From positions 1 to 39,403 of the forward strand of contig NZ_VAVZ01000035.1 in NCBI RefSeq assembly GCF_005771525.1: 39,403 bases of DNA. Reading direction: 5' to 3'. The notes under the pieces are model-generated. The model searched no databases. It saw only the letters and a program-made list of their open reading frames with translations, and was not told the origin of the DNA. Of the stretch, positions 26,238 through 32,206 are shown one piece after another. A program made the translations under genes and the position numbers. Within the stretch, counting starts at the first letter, position 1. Each line of letters starts with the position of its first letter. This stretch comes from Nesterenkonia salmonea (lineage in GTDB: Bacteria > Actinomycetota > Actinomycetes > Actinomycetales > Micrococcaceae).

Positions 26238-27257
26238 TCAGGAGTCGATGACGTGCTTCAGCAGGCCGCGGTCCTCGGCCAGGAGGGTCTCTGCCACGCG
26301 GGTTCCGAGTTCCGCGGCAGCTGTGATGCCAGCTTCACGGGTGACTCCGGGTTCGAGCGTCAGCTCCTGGCCGGCCCGTTGAACCTCTGAGCCATCAGGT
26401 GCGCAGACCATGGTGTCCAGGCGCAGCTTCACTCCCCCGTCGGGTTCATCCTCGCACCGGGCGAGCCCGCCGATGGGTGCGGAGCATCCGGCGTTGAGCC
26501 GAGCCAAAAGGGCCCGCTCGGCGGTGGCTTCCAACCGGCTCTCCAGATGATCCAGCTGGGCCAAGCTGACGGATAGAGACGTGCTCGGCGCCGACTGCGC
26601 GCTGCGGACTTCCACTGCGAGTGCACCCTGTCCGGGGGCGGGCAGCATCACGTCAGGATCCAGTAGCTCAGAGATGTGGTGATGAAGTTCCAACCGGGCC
26701 AGTCCTGCCCCGGCGAGCACTACGGCGTCCAAGTCTCCGCGGGCGGCATCGGGCGCTTGGCTGGATTTCTCAGCCGCGTCCTCACGCCCACGGACGCGCG
26801 CCAGCCGGGTGCCGACGTTGCCGCGGATGTCCACAATGTTCAGGTCTGGTCGTGCAGCCAGCAGTTGGGCCGCACGGCGAGGGGAGCCGGTGCCGACTTT
26901 GGCCCCCTCGGGGAGTTCCTCAAGAGTGAGGTCATCGGCGGCGCACAGGGCATCACGGACATCTGCCCTCTCGGGAACTGCTGCAATATTTAGTCCCTCA
27001 ACGTCTTTGGCCGGCAGGTCCTTCAGTGAATGGACGGCGACATCAATGTCCACATCGAACAGGGCTTTGCGCAGTGCGGTGGCGAAGACCCCGGTGCCTC
27101 CGAGCTGGCTCAGCGGCCCGGTCAGGACATCACCCTCTGACCGGATGGTGACCAGCTCGTAGTCCAGCCCACCCAAATCGGCGAGCGCCTCAGCCGCTGT
27201 GGTGCTCTGCCGCATGGCCAGCCTGCTGCCCCGTGTGCCGACGCGGAAGGACTCCAT
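26238..27257 (-). CDS. hemC: Hydroxymethylbilane synthase (porphobilinogen deaminase)
   Basis: A 339-residue enzyme polymerising four porphobilinogens. RVGTRGSRLAMRQ at the N-terminus, VHSLKDLP, GTGSPRRAAQL and the cofactor-attachment Cys258 in LNAGCSAPIGG are all intact. An extra segment (about 160-175, EDAAEKSSQAPDAARGDL) replaces the short loop of the E. coli enzyme, as is common in actinobacteria. ATG 27257 shares one base with the chdC stop (TGATG), so translation is probably coupled. Confidence 0.97.
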   Translation of the reverse strand: MESFRVGTRGSRLAMRQSTTAAEALADLGGLDYELVTIRSEGDVLTGPLSQLGGTGVFATALRKALFDVDIDVAVHSLKDLPAKDVEGLNIAAVPERADVRDALCAADDLTLEELPEGAKVGTGSPRRAAQLLAARPDLNIVDIRGNVGTRLARVRGREDAAEKSSQAPDAARGDLDAVVLAGAGLARLELHHHISELLDPDVMLPAPGQGALAVEVRSAQSAPSTSLSVSLAQLDHLESRLEATAERALLARLNAGCSAPIGGLARCEDEPDGGVKLRLDTMVCAPDGSEVQRAGQELTLEPGVTREAGITAAAELGTRVAETLLAEDRGLLKHVIDS

Positions 27258-28039
27258 CAGGCGAGCACTTCAACAACGTCGACTGTGTCGGGGAGCCGGC
27301 GTCCGGTATAGAAAGGGATTTCGTCACGCACGTGGTACCGGGTCTCGGATTCACGCAGTCGGCGCATCATATCCACCAGGTCCCGCAGGTCTGGGGCTTC
27401 CAGTGCTAGCAACCACTCCCAGTCATTGAGCGCGAACGCGGAGGTCGTGTTCGCCAGCACGGAGGGGAACTCCTGGCCGAGCTCGCCGTGCTCACGAAGC
27501 ATCTTGCCGCGCTTGGCGGGATCCAGCAGGTACCAGTCGTAACTGCGGTTGAACGGGTAGACGGTCAGCCATTCCTCAGGCTCTACTCCGCGGGCGAACG
27601 CCGGCACATGGCCACGGGCGAACTCTGCGGTGCGGTGGACGCCCATGGCGGAGAAGGCCATCTCCGTGCTGTTGAGCAGTTCTGTCCGGTGCAGGGCACG
27701 CAGGGCAGCCTGTAACTTCTCCGCCTTATGCCCGGTGACCCACAGCATGATGTCCGCATCGGCCCGCATCCCGGAGACGTCGTAGACTCCGCGTAGCTCC
27801 GCGGCGTCGTCGTCATGACCCAGCCCTCCGCCGGCCAGTGAGGTGACGACCTCGTCAAAAGCTGAGGCGATCTTTTCTGCTTTGCGCCCGGCCGGCACCT
27901 CTGAGCGGTGCTTAGGCTCCCACCAATCGACCGCCGACCGAGACTCGGTGCGGGTGAACACGGTGAAGACGGTGAACCAGTCTTTACCGGAGGAGTTGAC
28001 GTCCTCCGGGCTGCGCTGCGGATTGCGACCATAACTCAT
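27257..28039 (-). CDS. chdC: Coproheme decarboxylase ChdC (HemQ)
   Basis: A 260-residue chlorite-dismutase-fold enzyme that oxidatively decarboxylates coproheme III to heme b using peroxide, the last step of the monoderm pathway. Tyr161 in YPFNRSYDWYLL is the catalytic radical tyrosine, and His184 in LREHG is the proximal heme ligand; the 23-residue spacing equals that of the Corynebacterium enzyme. GVHRTAEFARGHVPAF is also family-typical. The N-terminal third carries about 20 additional residues (region 30-60, DWWEPKHRSEVPAG) relative to homologues I recall. ATG 28039 follows TAAGCT by 6 nt (leaderless). A perfect dyad lies 31 nt upstream. It is coupled to hemC by TGATG. Confidence 0.96.
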   Translation of the reverse strand: MSYGRNPQRSPEDVNSSGKDWFTVFTVFTRTESRSAVDWWEPKHRSEVPAGRKAEKIASAFDEVVTSLAGGGLGHDDDAAELRGVYDVSGMRADADIMLWVTGHKAEKLQAALRALHRTELLNSTEMAFSAMGVHRTAEFARGHVPAFARGVEPEEWLTVYPFNRSYDWYLLDPAKRGKMLREHGELGQEFPSVLANTTSAFALNDWEWLLALEAPDLRDLVDMMRRLRESETRYHVRDEIPFYTGRRLPDTVDVVEVLA

Positions 28040-28051
28040 GCAGCCAGCTTA
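28040..28051 (-). promoter_or_regulatory. Leaderless promoter -10 of chdC
   Basis: On the minus strand TAAGCT (28046-28051), 6 nt, ATG 28039. The expected -35 zone falls at the edge of the dyad 28070-28088, so a bound regulator would contact this promoter. Confidence 0.5.
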
Positions 28052-28069: not shown

Positions 28070-28088
28070 CTTCTACAGGGTGTAGAAG
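28070..28088. promoter_or_regulatory. Perfect operator-like dyad upstream of chdC
   Basis: CTTCTACA-GGG-TGTAGAAG is a perfect 8-bp inverted repeat with 3-nt spacer, in the 109-nt gap between cgoX and chdC. It is AT-richer than its surroundings. A related copy overlaps the hemA -10 box (30712-30730), so it is probably a regulator site. The core TACA-N3-TGTA resembles dyads bound by BlaI/CopY-type repressors, but no such gene is in the window and the binder is unknown. Confidence 0.6.
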
Positions 28089-28148
28089 AATGACAGGCGA
28101 CGACGCCCGAGCCGCCTCACGTGCCCCAGCTCGGCTGGCGGAGGCGGA

Positions 28149-29543
28149 TCAGCGGCTCAGGATCTGCTGTGCGGTGCGGCGAGCATCGGGGATGACCTGG
28201 GCAAGCCCGGTGCCGGAGAACCACGCGCCCGCCACCGCAATCTGTGGCCCTCCGGCACTGTGCCGGGCGCTGAGCCGTTCTCTGATGCGTTGTGCGTCAC
28301 TGCGCTGCTGGGTTGATCCGCCGGGAAGTCCGGTCTGCCAGCGCACCACCGTGTGATCGAGCAGCTGCTCGCCGGTCACAGTCAGGCCCGTCAGCGCTGG
28401 GAGATCCGTCATCGCAGCGCTGAGCAGCGCCGTGTCTGAGGAGGCGAACCCTAGACTGCCGTCGGTGTCGGTGACGCGTCCGAACGAGAGCCGCAGCAAG
28501 TGGTGGCTTGGACCCAGCTGATCCTCCAGCGCGCGGGCCACCCATTCCCATTTGGCTGAGATATGGGTCATTGCTTTGGCCTGGATGTGGTCCGCCGTGG
28601 GCGCTACGAGCATTCCGGTCCCGCGCGGCCATCCGTCCAACGCCGGTGCGTGCACCAGAAGCGTCACTAGTGCCACTCCGGAGTTCCGGCTCATGCCATG
28701 ACGAGCCGCTGGCTGATGCGGCTGGCTGGGTTCATGGGGCTGGCCGATCAGCCTGTTGACTTGGCGGCCTTCGGTGGCCAGGATGACGGCATCTGCCTGC
28801 AGCGCGCCGACATCGTGAACCTCTGTATTGAGATGAATGGTGGTGCCGAGTTCGCGGAGCTGCGCTTCCAGGGTACTGATCAGAGTGTTCATACCGCCGT
28901 GCAGTGATTGGACTGCAGACCCTGCTGGGGCGGCTGCGCGCAGGGCAGTGACCGCTCGCGCCAGGGACCCTTCAGCGATCATGGTGCGGTACAGCTCAGG
29001 GTGTGCGGAGCTGATCGCCAGGTCATATGGATCTGCTGAGTGCACCCCTGAGGTAATGGGAGCGACGAGCCGCTCCACCACCGCTGGGCCCATCCGGTCG
29101 GCGACGACGTCCCCCAATGCCGGGCGCTGCTCCTGCGACCAGGTCATGGGCGCTTCAAGATCCTGGGTTGCGCGTGCGGCCTGTTCAGCACCGAGAATGG
29201 CCATCACGTCTTCAGCCCCGGGATCTCCCGGAACGCCTAACACCCCGGTGGAGGGCATCGGTGCTGCTTGATCTGGCAGTTGCAGCCAGGCCCCCAGCGG
29301 ATTGGGAGAGACGACCTGCTGATCCAGGCCCAGGTCGCGGAGGAAATCCCGCACTGCGGGGGTGCGTGTCGCGAAGGCTTCCGCCCCGGCGTCGACCTGC
29401 ACCTGCGCAAGCGATACGGGGGCAATCGCTCCCCCGAGCCGGCCGCTGGCCTCATAGAGTTCAACCTGGTGCCCGCTTCGGGCAAGCTCCCATGCGGCAG
29501 TCAGTCCGGCAATTCCGCCGCCGATGACTGCTGTGCGGTTCAT
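28149..29543 (-). CDS. hemY: Coproporphyrinogen III oxidase (CgoX/HemY type)
   Basis: A 464-residue FAD protein of the protoporphyrinogen/coproporphyrinogen oxidase family. The N-terminal dinucleotide fold is AVIGGGIAGLTAAWELARSG, with the acidic ribose-binding YEASGRLGG. ITSGVHSADPYDLAISSAHPELY and the C-terminal VAGAWFSGTGLAQVIPDA (second FAD contact) are intact. In a cluster with chdC and no coproporphyrinogen decarboxylating enzyme, the substrate should be coproporphyrinogen III, giving coproporphyrin III. ATG 29543 overlaps the hemE stop as ATGA. The name cgoX is also used for this gene. Confidence 0.95.
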   Translation of the reverse strand: MNRTAVIGGGIAGLTAAWELARSGHQVELYEASGRLGGAIAPVSLAQVQVDAGAEAFATRTPAVRDFLRDLGLDQQVVSPNPLGAWLQLPDQAAPMPSTGVLGVPGDPGAEDVMAILGAEQAARATQDLEAPMTWSQEQRPALGDVVADRMGPAVVERLVAPITSGVHSADPYDLAISSAHPELYRTMIAEGSLARAVTALRAAAPAGSAVQSLHGGMNTLISTLEAQLRELGTTIHLNTEVHDVGALQADAVILATEGRQVNRLIGQPHEPSQPHQPAARHGMSRNSGVALVTLLVHAPALDGWPRGTGMLVAPTADHIQAKAMTHISAKWEWVARALEDQLGPSHHLLRLSFGRVTDTDGSLGFASSDTALLSAAMTDLPALTGLTVTGEQLLDHTVVRWQTGLPGGSTQQRSDAQRIRERLSARHSAGGPQIAVAGAWFSGTGLAQVIPDARRTAQQILSR

Positions 29544-30661
29544 GGGTCGATCGAGTGGATGAGTTCCACCACTCGTGTCAGGACCGCAGGGTCAGTCTCA
29601 GGAGGTACACCATGACCGAGGTTGAGAACATGGCCGGCCGCGCCGGATCCGGCTGCGATCACCTCACGGACATGAGCTTCCAGAACAGACCAGTCCGCGG
29701 TAAGGAATGCGGGGTCAATATTGCCCTGCAGGGGTGTCTCGGGTCCAAGGCGGCGGGTGGCTTCACTGAGGTTCAGCCGGTAGTCGACACCGACCACATC
29801 GGCCCCTGCGGTTTTTAACAGGTCAAGAATCTCGCTGGTTCCGGTGCCAAAGTGCACCAGAGGGGCGCTCACGCCATCTGGCCCACTCAGTCCTGAAACA
29901 TGGGACAGGGCCGCAGTTGAATGCGGTAGAACGTGGCGCTGGTAGTCGGCCCGGCCGAGTGAACCGGCCCAGGAGTCGAACAGCTGCGCAGCGGATGCAC
30001 CGGCCATCAGTTGGGCGCGCATGAATCGGCCGGAGACATCGGCGGCCCATGCCGCCAGGGCGTTCCATGTCTGCGGGTCGGTGTGCATCATGGCTCGCGG
30101 GCCCAGGTGATCCCGTGAGGGCCGACCTTCCACCATATAGGCAGCCAAGGTGAAGGGTGCGCCTGCGAATCCGATCAGGGGGGTGCTGCCGAGTTCTGCT
30201 GTGGTGCGCTGGATCGCCTCGGTGATGGGCGCGAATGCGGCGTCGTCGAGCTCAGGTAGTGCGGCAACGTCTGCGGCGGTGCGCACTGGGGCGTCCAAGA
30301 CTGGACCGACTCCGGGCTTAATCTCCACACCCACACCGGCCAGGCGCAGCGGAATGACAATATCGGAGAAAAAGATCGCGGCGTCAACGTCATGGCGGCG
30401 CACCGGTTGCAGCGTAATCTCACTGGCCATGTCCGGGTTGAGGCAGGAGTCCAGCATGGAAGTGCCCTCACGCAGCTCCCGGTACTCCGGCAGTGACCGG
30501 CCGGCTTGGCGCATGAACCACACGGGCCGGCGCTCAGGCGAAGCAGGCGCCCCGGCGCTGGTGCGCGAACCGCGGTACTGGTTGAGCAGCGCGGACTCTG
30601 AGGTCAGTCCACTCGTCAAAGGGTGGTCTGCGGGCAGCTGGGACGTAGGCGTCGTCGTCAT
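29540..30661 (-). CDS. hemE: Uroporphyrinogen decarboxylase
   Basis: A 373-residue enzyme removing four acetate carboxyls from uroporphyrinogen III to give coproporphyrinogen III. RPVWFMRQAGRSLPEYR is the diagnostic N-terminal signature, FFSDIVIPLRLAGVGV contains the catalytic Asp, and LIGFAGAPFTLAAYMVEG and LQGNIDPAFL are further family blocks. ATG 30661 is preferred over a GTG nine codons upstream, because family members begin near this point. CAGAAT 6 nt before it may be a leaderless -10. It is the first gene of the minus-strand heme run and diverges from hemA. Confidence 0.96.
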   Translation of the reverse strand: MTTTPTSQLPADHPLTSGLTSESALLNQYRGSRTSAGAPASPERRPVWFMRQAGRSLPEYRELREGTSMLDSCLNPDMASEITLQPVRRHDVDAAIFFSDIVIPLRLAGVGVEIKPGVGPVLDAPVRTAADVAALPELDDAAFAPITEAIQRTTAELGSTPLIGFAGAPFTLAAYMVEGRPSRDHLGPRAMMHTDPQTWNALAAWAADVSGRFMRAQLMAGASAAQLFDSWAGSLGRADYQRHVLPHSTAALSHVSGLSGPDGVSAPLVHFGTGTSEILDLLKTAGADVVGVDYRLNLSEATRRLGPETPLQGNIDPAFLTADWSVLEAHVREVIAAGSGAAGHVLNLGHGVPPETDPAVLTRVVELIHSIDP

Positions 30662-30711
30662 ACTCCCATTCTGCCTTGTACGGACCACTTCCCGTCACGA
30701 ACAGCGAACTT

Positions 30712-30730
30712 CTTCTACACACGATAGAAT
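30712..30730. promoter_or_regulatory. Imperfect copy of the chdC dyad over the hemA promoter
   Basis: CTTCTACA-CAC-GATAGAAT shares its left half exactly with the chdC dyad and matches 5 of 8 positions in the right half. It covers the hemA -10 box TAGAAT (30725-30730), a position expected for repression of hemA. It lies in the 78-nt hemE-hemA divergent gap and may also affect hemE. Confidence 0.5.
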
Positions 30731-30739: not shown

Positions 30740-32206
30740 GTGGTTCTCTTTTCTCTTGTCGCAACCCACACCGATCTCGACCTCGAGACCGTCGGGACAC
30801 TTTCCGCAGGAGCGGCCGATGTTGCCGCTTCTGTAGATCTGCCTGCCGTGACACTGGCCACCTGCAACCGCCTCGAAATCTACGCCGAATCCGGCTCGAA
30901 CTCTCCTGAGGCGCTTGAGGAAAGCCGTAACAGGCTTATCGCCGCGGTCGCTGAGTCCTCCGGACTGGATGAGGCCACAGTCGCCCGGTCTTTCAAGACT
31001 TTGGTCGATGGCGACGCCGCCCATCACCTTTTCGAGGTCGGAGCCGGCTTGGATTCCGCCGTGGTGGGTGAACGTGAGATCGCCGGTCAGGTGAGGCGGT
31101 CGTTGGCTGAGGCTCAGGCCTCAGGCACCGCATCAGGGACTCTGACGAAGCTCTTCGAATCCGCTACGCGTGCGGCGAAGGACGTTGGCGCCAAGACCGC
31201 CCTTGGGTCTCGGGGCCGGTCGATCGTCTCCGTGGCTTTAGACATCGCTGGTGACATGCGCGGCCACGGACCGTCGTTCTACCAGAACGCCAAAGTGGTG
31301 CTGATTGGGACCGGCGCCTACGCCGGTGCTTCGCTTTCCCAGCTGGCCGAACGTGGCGTGACGGATATCGCCGTCTTCTCCGGATCCGGCCGCGCGGAGG
31401 ACTTCCTCACCGCACGCAAAGACGCCGTCCTAGCCCGCGGAAGCCAGGTCCGCTCACTGCGCATGGATGAGTTGGCCGCCGCCTTCCGTGAAGCTGATGT
31501 CATCATCGGCTGCTCAGGAGGGAACCGTCAGATCACGGCCGGAGAGATCCGCTCATTAGCCGCACTGCATGAGCGCGCTGAACCCCTGACGGTGATTGAC
31601 CTGGCGCTCTCTCATGACTTCACCCCCGAGGTCGCCGAACTCCCCGGAGTGGACCTGATCACACTGGAATCAGTGAAGATCGCCGCACCAGAAGAAACCT
31701 CAGCCTCAGTCGACGACGCTCGAGCAGTCGTCGCAGATTCCGTCCAGAACTACCTCTCCGAGCGTGCTGAGCGCACCGCAGATGACGCGATCGTCACGCT
31801 GCGCAAACACGTGCAGTCCCTCTTGGACGAGGAAATGGACAAGGTCCGCAAACACCACGGATGCAGCGCCGCTTCAGAAGAGGTGGAGTTCGGCCTGCGC
31901 CGCATTGTCCGCAAGCTGCTGCACACCCCCACTGTGCGTGCCCGGGAGCTGGCCGCAGAGGGCCGCGGTGACGAGTACGTTGCTGCCCTACAGACCATCT
32001 TTGGGGTCGAGGTGGCAGCCGCCGAAGATTCACAGCGACAGGCGGGGCCGCGGTGTCGTCCTGAAGATTTCTCCACTGCCGAGCTGGCACATATGGCAGC
32101 GTATCTCCAGCAAGTCCCCGACGGCGGATTCTGCCGTCACCACCGTGCCGGGGAGTTCAGCATCGCACGGTTCCAGGCCGTGGAAGCCGTCCGCAAGAGC
32201 GCCTAA
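30740..32206 (+). CDS. hemA: Glutamyl-tRNA reductase
   Basis: A 488-residue NADPH-dependent enzyme reducing Glu-tRNA(Glu) to glutamate-1-semialdehyde, the committed step of C5 heme synthesis. Cys42 in TLATCNRLEIYAES is the catalytic thiol. GAGLDSAVVGEREIAGQVR is the conserved tRNA/substrate region, KVVLIGTGAYAGASLSQL is the NADPH fold, and the C-terminus (residues ~330-400) forms the dimerisation helix. The last 50 residues (SQRQAGPRCRPEDF onward) extend beyond the E. coli enzyme length. The start is GTG with no ribosome-binding site. It is transcribed away from all other heme genes of the window. Confidence 0.96.
   Translation: MVLFSLVATHTDLDLETVGTLSAGAADVAASVDLPAVTLATCNRLEIYAESGSNSPEALEESRNRLIAAVAESSGLDEATVARSFKTLVDGDAAHHLFEVGAGLDSAVVGEREIAGQVRRSLAEAQASGTASGTLTKLFESATRAAKDVGAKTALGSRGRSIVSVALDIAGDMRGHGPSFYQNAKVVLIGTGAYAGASLSQLAERGVTDIAVFSGSGRAEDFLTARKDAVLARGSQVRSLRMDELAAAFREADVIIGCSGGNRQITAGEIRSLAALHERAEPLTVIDLALSHDFTPEVAELPGVDLITLESVKIAAPEETSASVDDARAVVADSVQNYLSERAERTADDAIVTLRKHVQSLLDEEMDKVRKHHGCSAASEEVEFGLRRIVRKLLHTPTVRARELAAEGRGDEYVAALQTIFGVEVAAAEDSQRQAGPRCRPEDFSTAELAHMAAYLQQVPDGGFCRHHRAGEFSIARFQAVEAVRKSA

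Follow-up and report, generated by a model that had tools for sequence, protein, structure and literature searches.

A dyad shared by chdC and hemA of Nesterenkonia salmonea as a candidate operator of a BlaI-family repressor

Two similar dyads precede chdC and hemA, the last and first genes of the heme pathway, in a 39,403-nucleotide stretch of the genome of Nesterenkonia salmonea (Micrococcaceae; positions 1 to 39,403 of contig NZ_VAVZ01000035.1, assembly GCF_005771525.1; hereafter the window), which raises the question of which regulator would bind both sites and to what it would respond. An initial annotation, made from the sequence alone, had left this regulator unassigned and noted that its gene lies outside the window. 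The gene is indeed found elsewhere, on contig C48, and the regulator can now be assigned: with a probability of about 0.8, the chdC and hemA dyads are operators of the BlaI-family repressor encoded on C48 beside a BlaR1-like protease, and are shared with respiratory genes. This repressor is the most likely candidate because the sites are conserved, because its own gene carries one, because gene and sites co-occur across the family, and because cydA, blaI and chdC recur as targets.

The two dyads and their conservation

The elements of the two promoters are as follows, the -10 boxes having been read by eye.

27257..28039, minus strand: chdC, coproheme decarboxylase (Chlor_dismutase family, PF06778)
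28046..28051, minus strand: putative chdC -10 box TAAGCT, 6 bp upstream of the ATG, from aligned upstream sequences
28070..28088, minus strand: predicted chdC operator, CTTCTACA-CCC-TGTAGAAG on the minus strand, proposed on the basis of sequence
30712..30730, plus strand: predicted hemA operator, a weak copy, within the hemE-hemA divergent region
30725..30730, plus strand: putative hemA -10 box TAGAAT, coinciding with the right end of the operator, 9 bp upstream of the GTG
30740..32206, plus strand: hemA, glutamyl-tRNA reductase (GlutR_N, GlutR_dimer)

The chdC site, CTTCTACAGGGTGTAGAAG (28070-28088), reads CTTCTACA-GGG-TGTAGAAG on the forward strand and is an exact dyad with 8-bp arms, located 30 bp from the chdC start at 28039. 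The hemA copy, CTTCTACACACGATAGAAT (30712-30730), reads CTTCTACA-CAC-GATAGAAT and lies 9 bp upstream of the GTG at 30740. The initial annotation had described both correctly, including the left half and spacer length that they share and the weaker right half over the hemA -10 box. Allowing three mismatches, CTTCTACA-N3-TGTAGAAG matches these two sites and no others in the whole window, as compared to a mean of 0.02, and never two, in 100 shuffles, an expectation that uses a pattern derived from the chdC site itself. Symmetry as the sole criterion was rejected as not significant, as the window holds 23 perfect dyads with 8-bp arms at spacers of 0-10 (about 0.9 expected per spacer), among which the chdC site is the only one of 8-3-8 form. 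It is conservation, the genome-wide count of 19 sites versus two in the control, and the tie to the regulator gene that place the chdC dyad above chance.

Both sites lie where a repressor could act. The chdC operator is situated approximately one -35 distance above GATAAGCT, which 14 of the 30 Nesterenkonia genomes have upstream of chdC, such that its right half overlaps the expected -35 region; with the putative -10 box 6 bp from the ATG, the chdC transcript would be leaderless. At hemA, TAGAAT occurs within 25 bp of the start in all 29 upstream regions considered (L250 excluded), and since it lies about nine bases before the GTG, the hemA transcript is probably leaderless as well. In two genomes (L229 and L233) the whole hemA operator is placed 10-11 bp higher, with a separate TAGAAT below it. 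The placement of the operator over the -10 box at hemA and at the -35 region at chdC suits a repressor.

Conservation was assessed in 260 bp upstream of each gene in 30 Nesterenkonia genomes. The chdC site is present with at most two mismatches in 28 of these (missing from L207 and L208; in L220, where chdC is broken, the anchor was set from residue 148). A hemA homolog exists in all 30, and the hemA site, at up to three mismatches, in 24, the misses being L230, L231, L232, L236, L238 and L250, the last with a broken hemA and an unsure anchor. Each of 28 Nesterenkonia blaI orthologs has a site with no more than two mismatches, where the next-best match has at least four, and all of the 30 best BlaI homologs from a family-wide search are preceded by a site with three or fewer. 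The reversed control yielded no match at this threshold in 90 upstream regions (30 each for chdC, hemA and blaI; best, four mismatches). The expectation that sites would be kept upstream of orthologous chdC and hemA genes was thus borne out, as was the sharing of one operator by the two genes.

The pattern extends beyond the genus. Among 80 named chdC loci, 45 were placed in Micrococcaceae by title, and 36 of these have a chdC site with up to three mismatches; the misses comprise one Nesterenkonia, Micrococcus, Galactobacter, three Kocuria, two Rothia and one unnamed locus. None of the 35 loci outside the family has such a site, but BlaI was not searched in these, so their lack of a site is no test of BlaI. 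Other genes of the 45 loci have a site of this quality within 320 bp upstream in 31 of 670 cases (reversed control, 2). Sites with at most two mismatches fall at chdC or hemA/hemE, the exceptions being three inside or close to the beginning of the chdC coding region and a fourth at another place, and many of the 31 therefore appear to share those regions. Across loci the operator arms are kept and the three spacer bases vary. In Haematomicrobium (L089), an exact operator copy lies at -65 upstream of hemA. Arthrobacter loci (e.g., L093, L096 and L103) have a conserved GTTCTAC-N6-CGAAA upstream of hemA, mostly at -38; this element is three to five mismatches off the operator and is possibly a degenerate form of it.

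Two further genes occupy the interval between the dyads.

28149..29543, minus strand: FAD oxidoreductase between hemE and chdC (Amino_oxidase family, PF01593)
29540..30661, minus strand: hemE, uroporphyrinogen decarboxylase (URO-D), divergent from hemA

The FAD oxidoreductase is presumably hemY (protoporphyrinogen/coproporphyrinogen oxidase), a name that we assign from gene order. The hemE start was set at the ATG at 30661 by choice (the longest frame starts at 30688), and hemE may share the hemA operator. The nearest named homolog of the window's chdC is that of Nesterenkonia natronophila (91%).

The candidate regulator and its predicted operator set

Two genes of the Penicillinase_R family (PF03965) are present in the genome, at C48:31486-31809 and C69:5540-5863. 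The C48 protein, whose gene spans 31477-31812, scores 84.8 bits (cut-off, 22.6), and a predicted operator lies 61 bp upstream of this gene. Among solved structures compared by sequence, 2g9w, which we take to be M. tuberculosis BlaI, ranks first (E 4e-18), ahead of MecI (E 2e-4) and staphylococcal BlaI (E 8e-4). The protein is 112 residues long with a single cysteine, lacks the C-terminal CxC metal motif of CopY/CopR, and at 32.8 stays below the CopY cut-off of 121.95. The gene caller places a frame with HExxH directly after blaI in 34 of 38 loci, and plain reading frames supply it in the remaining four. In the window genome this partner is a membrane metalloprotease of 325 residues with Peptidase_M48 as its sole domain match, and it is therefore without a penicillin-sensor domain. 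A model of the partner (mean pLDDT 82.7) comes nearest to S. aureus BlaR1 (8exq) and then to Ste24. Residues H191, E192, H195 and E232 are invariant in 22 of 22 aligned partners. C159, H108 and H127 are likewise invariant in the 22 (L061:3854-4828 is in the alignment), and it is possible that these are sensing residues.

Genome-wide, the exact palindrome TTCTACA-N3-TGTAGAA occurs four times (reversed control, 0) and TTCKAC-N5-GTMGAA 19 times (reversed control, 2). Counting sites by three mismatches or fewer in the 16 arm bases proved useless, giving 41 versus 32 in the control, and weak copies identified by mismatch count alone are therefore no evidence. The neighbors of the 19 sites, called with a home-made gene caller and scanned with Pfam and NCBIfam, place 11 of them at chdC, blaI or genes of respiration and cytochrome assembly; no beta-lactamase family or ATP synthase gene was matched among the scanned neighbors.

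C70: chdC
C48:31399: blaI and protease
C48:34530: DUF3099 gene, with SURF1 two genes further; other side, short-chain dehydrogenase
C48:45444: ABC ATPase, permease and ctaA (COX15-CtaA); other side, RibD_C gene
C50: small gene and CopD-CtaG
C56: ctaB (UbiA family)
C86:7403: second SURF1 and glyoxalase-like gene
C86:73506: sdhC, then a second Sdh_cyt gene and FAD-binding subunit; other side, manC-like gene
C97:58743: COX3 gene, then qcrC (ctaE-qcrC); other side, trpD-like gene
C93: second qcrC, about 425 bp away
C130:81836: redoxin and DsbD_TM gene; other side, ZnuA-like gene

In 30 exact-palindrome loci of other genomes, the first listed among 97 genomes with matches, the site adjoins cydA and/or blaI in 17 (cydA in 16, blaI in 14), chdC in five, flavohemoglobin in five and a redoxin like that of C130 in one, with no clear link in two. 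A cydA match exceeds the cut-off in 11 of the 30 Nesterenkonia genomes, the window genome having only a match below it, and in each of the four cydA loci fetched of these 11, two operators lie 22-23 bp apart upstream of the gene.

The sites also track the BlaI family gene across genomes. Of 197 family genomes, 168 have a homolog of the C48 protein at E 1e-12 or better, and 169 have at least one TTCTACR-N3-YGTAGAA (reversed control in 19); the stricter TTCTACA-N3-TGTAGAA is present in 97 (control in 7). Both gene and site occur in 167 genomes, BlaI only in one, site only in two and neither in 27 (Fisher p 9e-30, kinship not corrected; nine genomes were counted as without BlaI from absence in the match list). 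In genus g6, a single site accompanies BlaI in all four carriers, and all eight non-carriers lack one; in genus g14, sites occur in two of three carriers and in none of eight non-carriers (p 0.05). The single site of the four g6 carriers lies between blaI and a cydA-like gene, whose family was confirmed in L281 only. At the level of the order, the palindrome is found in 41 of 248 genomes, 16 of 19 within the family and 25 of 229 outside it, the latter all in families f6, f19 and f15. Six f6 genomes have two adjacent copies of the palindrome whose starts are 17 bp apart. Random occurrence, the other way in which the initial annotation expected its proposal to fail, is contradicted both by the 19 versus two sites in the genome and by the distribution of sites across the family genomes.

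Proposed mechanism and alternatives

These data, comprising sites, conservation, neighboring genes, co-occurrence and gene pairing read directly from the sequences, allow a model for the control of heme supply. In this model, a BlaI dimer would bind TTC(T/G)AC-N5-GTAGAA, over the -10 box of hemA and at the -35 region of chdC, and would thereby block RNA polymerase. BlaI would also repress its own gene, sdhC, ctaE-qcrC, ctaA, ctaB, SURF1, ctaG and genes of cytochrome c biogenesis, as well as cydA in relatives. On a signal that is at present a guess, probably a failure of respiration, a lack of cytochrome or of heme, or nitric oxide, the membrane protease would cleave BlaI and so release the whole gene set together; with such joint release, heme supply would follow cytochrome demand. 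Binding, repression, cleavage and signal are what we infer from the arrangement of genes and sites. The proposed heme-pathway regulator thus stands in part: it would control respiration, with heme synthesis as one branch, and the window sites are two of about 20.

Several observations weigh against this model. Eight of the 19 sites have no clear respiratory link:

C122: ZnuA-like, BNR
C95: cation efflux, unnamed gene
C81: universal stress; CopC gene 735 bp away
C79: DUF6112; CopC gene 756 bp away
C58: CarD, unnamed gene
C54: unnamed gene
C67: phosphatase, unnamed gene
C130:44160: class II tRNA synthetase, M13 peptidase

The hemA copy of the window genome, whose poor right half doubles as the -10 box, falls outside the 19 strict matches, so its case rests on conservation in the genus, where the left half is missing at hemA in five of 29 regions. 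Genome G215 carries BlaI and has neither a chdC nor a hemA site, and loss of BlaI is therefore the wrong explanation for their absence; G218 (82% complete) has the chdC site with no BlaI found, and G201 (65% complete) lacks both. In the family survey, G090 carries BlaI without a site, and the reverse holds for G088 and G147, where a site is present but no BlaI passes the E threshold. The fold match of the partner is weak (probability 1.00, E 0.005, TM 0.35; none at E 0.001). Lastly, three bases separate TACA and TGTA at chdC and in the exact family sites, as compared to two in CopY operators.

Small contigs of the assembly call for separate mention. C93, C95 and C122 hold second cytochrome-related copies, each contig with a BlaI-type site; identity to the main copies is 86% for qcrC, 74-78% for the redoxin-CcdA-ResB-like set and 61% for the ZnuA-like gene. 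C81 and C79 have one BlaI-type site each, and two CopC genes lie among the small contigs. These five contigs possibly represent a mobile island, or else strains mixed in the assembly. Positions 1704-2130 of C93 (L267), which precede the second qcrC, resemble by eye the remnant of a COX3-type gene.

The sites might be bound by a different regulator, either the C69 BlaI-type protein or a member of another family, with the C48 blaI gene being merely one of the targets. C69 does carry a second pair of BlaI and an M48/M56-type protease, and a site at a gene's own promoter is no proof that its product binds there. However, no site with two or fewer mismatches exists in the 8.5 kb fetched around the C69 gene, and this pair was rejected as the regulator for want of an operator nearby; a second, C69-like match is found in nine of 30 Nesterenkonia genomes as compared to chdC sites in 28, and the sites track the C48-type BlaI across the family and within g6. 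This scenario is accordingly very improbable. True heme feedback, in which heme or iron would control the repressor and synthesis would cease when heme is plentiful, would, according to the initial annotation, be ideally served by sites at the first and last genes of the pathway. In its favor, the available text of PMC7337898 describes heme-responsive HrrA of C. glutamicum as controlling much the same genes (hemA, hemE, hemQ, equivalent to chdC, ctaE-qcrCAB, ctaB, sdhCD and cydAB), and the available text of PMC7924339 counts M. tuberculosis blaI among the genes of the iron-dependent IdeR regulon. However, HrrSA is a two-component system of a different family that, per PMC7337898, represses heme synthesis and activates respiration, whereas the operator described here is common to heme synthesis genes, cytochrome and oxidase-assembly genes and, in relatives, cydA and flavohemoglobin, such that making and using heme would move together and not in opposition. 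Heme feedback is thus unlikely; because heme-making and heme-using genes have a common operator, a response to cytochrome demand or respiratory stress is the better fit.

It is also conceivable that the chdC site is the sole operator and that the hemA copy is no more than a promoter, the likeness of its -10 box to a half site being due to chance. All 29 hemA promoters retain TAGAAT, the five that lack the left half among them, and the window genome's copy misses the strict pattern. Nonetheless, the left half is found at the right spacing in 24 of 30 hemA regions, in two genomes the hemA operator is set off by about one helical turn from the -10 box below it, and the Haematomicrobium copy is exact at a distance from the start; chance resemblance is therefore quite unlikely.

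Relation to known systems and significance

The C48 BlaI and its partner resemble the BlaI/BlaR pair of M. tuberculosis, in that 2g9w, taken to be the mycobacterial BlaI, is the best structural match of the repressor and that both partners lack a beta-lactam sensor. For M. tuberculosis BlaR (Rv1845c), the absence of an extracellular sensor is stated in the available text of PMC5473688, citing another study, and a link of BlaI (Rv1846c) to ATP synthase in those of PMC5874750 and PMC7924339. A link between mycobacterial BlaI and cytochrome bd is already known; the available text on the mycobacterial system names no targets in heme synthesis, succinate dehydrogenase or oxidase assembly. The staphylococcal BlaI/MecI and BlaR1/MecR1 systems similarly pair a PF03965 repressor with a membrane metalloprotease, and their operators have the TACA/TGTA core (PMC7253601, available text). 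The initial annotation was thus right in likening the core of the window sites to BlaI/CopY-type operators. Unlike BlaR1/MecR1, the Nesterenkonia partner has no penicillin sensor, the predicted targets belong to respiration and heme and seemingly not to antibiotic resistance, and the operator spacer is three bases. CopY/CopR share the Pfam family and the core, but the CopY operator is TACANNTGTA with a two-base spacer, CopY proteins end in CxC, and the ten-base CopY-type core is insufficient by itself (PMC7253601, available text).

No publication title on BlaI and heme synthesis in Micrococcaceae was found in a search that left most subscription journals outside. The heme branch of BlaI control appears to be new, and the breadth of the respiratory set in Nesterenkonia was likewise not met in the literature search. 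More tentatively, actinobacterial BlaI-BlaR might at root be a respiratory-stress switch with cytochrome bd as its oldest common target, which in Nesterenkonia would have become the master repressor for a large part of aerobic respiration and for its supply of heme, the protease reading heme, copper or the redox state in the membrane, perhaps via C159. For the matching of heme supply to cytochrome demand in these actinobacteria, the available data thus provide a candidate regulator gene, an operator consensus and about 20 candidate places, along with a hint at the signals to which BlaR proteases lacking a penicillin sensor, a type reported for mycobacteria too (PMC5473688, available text), may respond.

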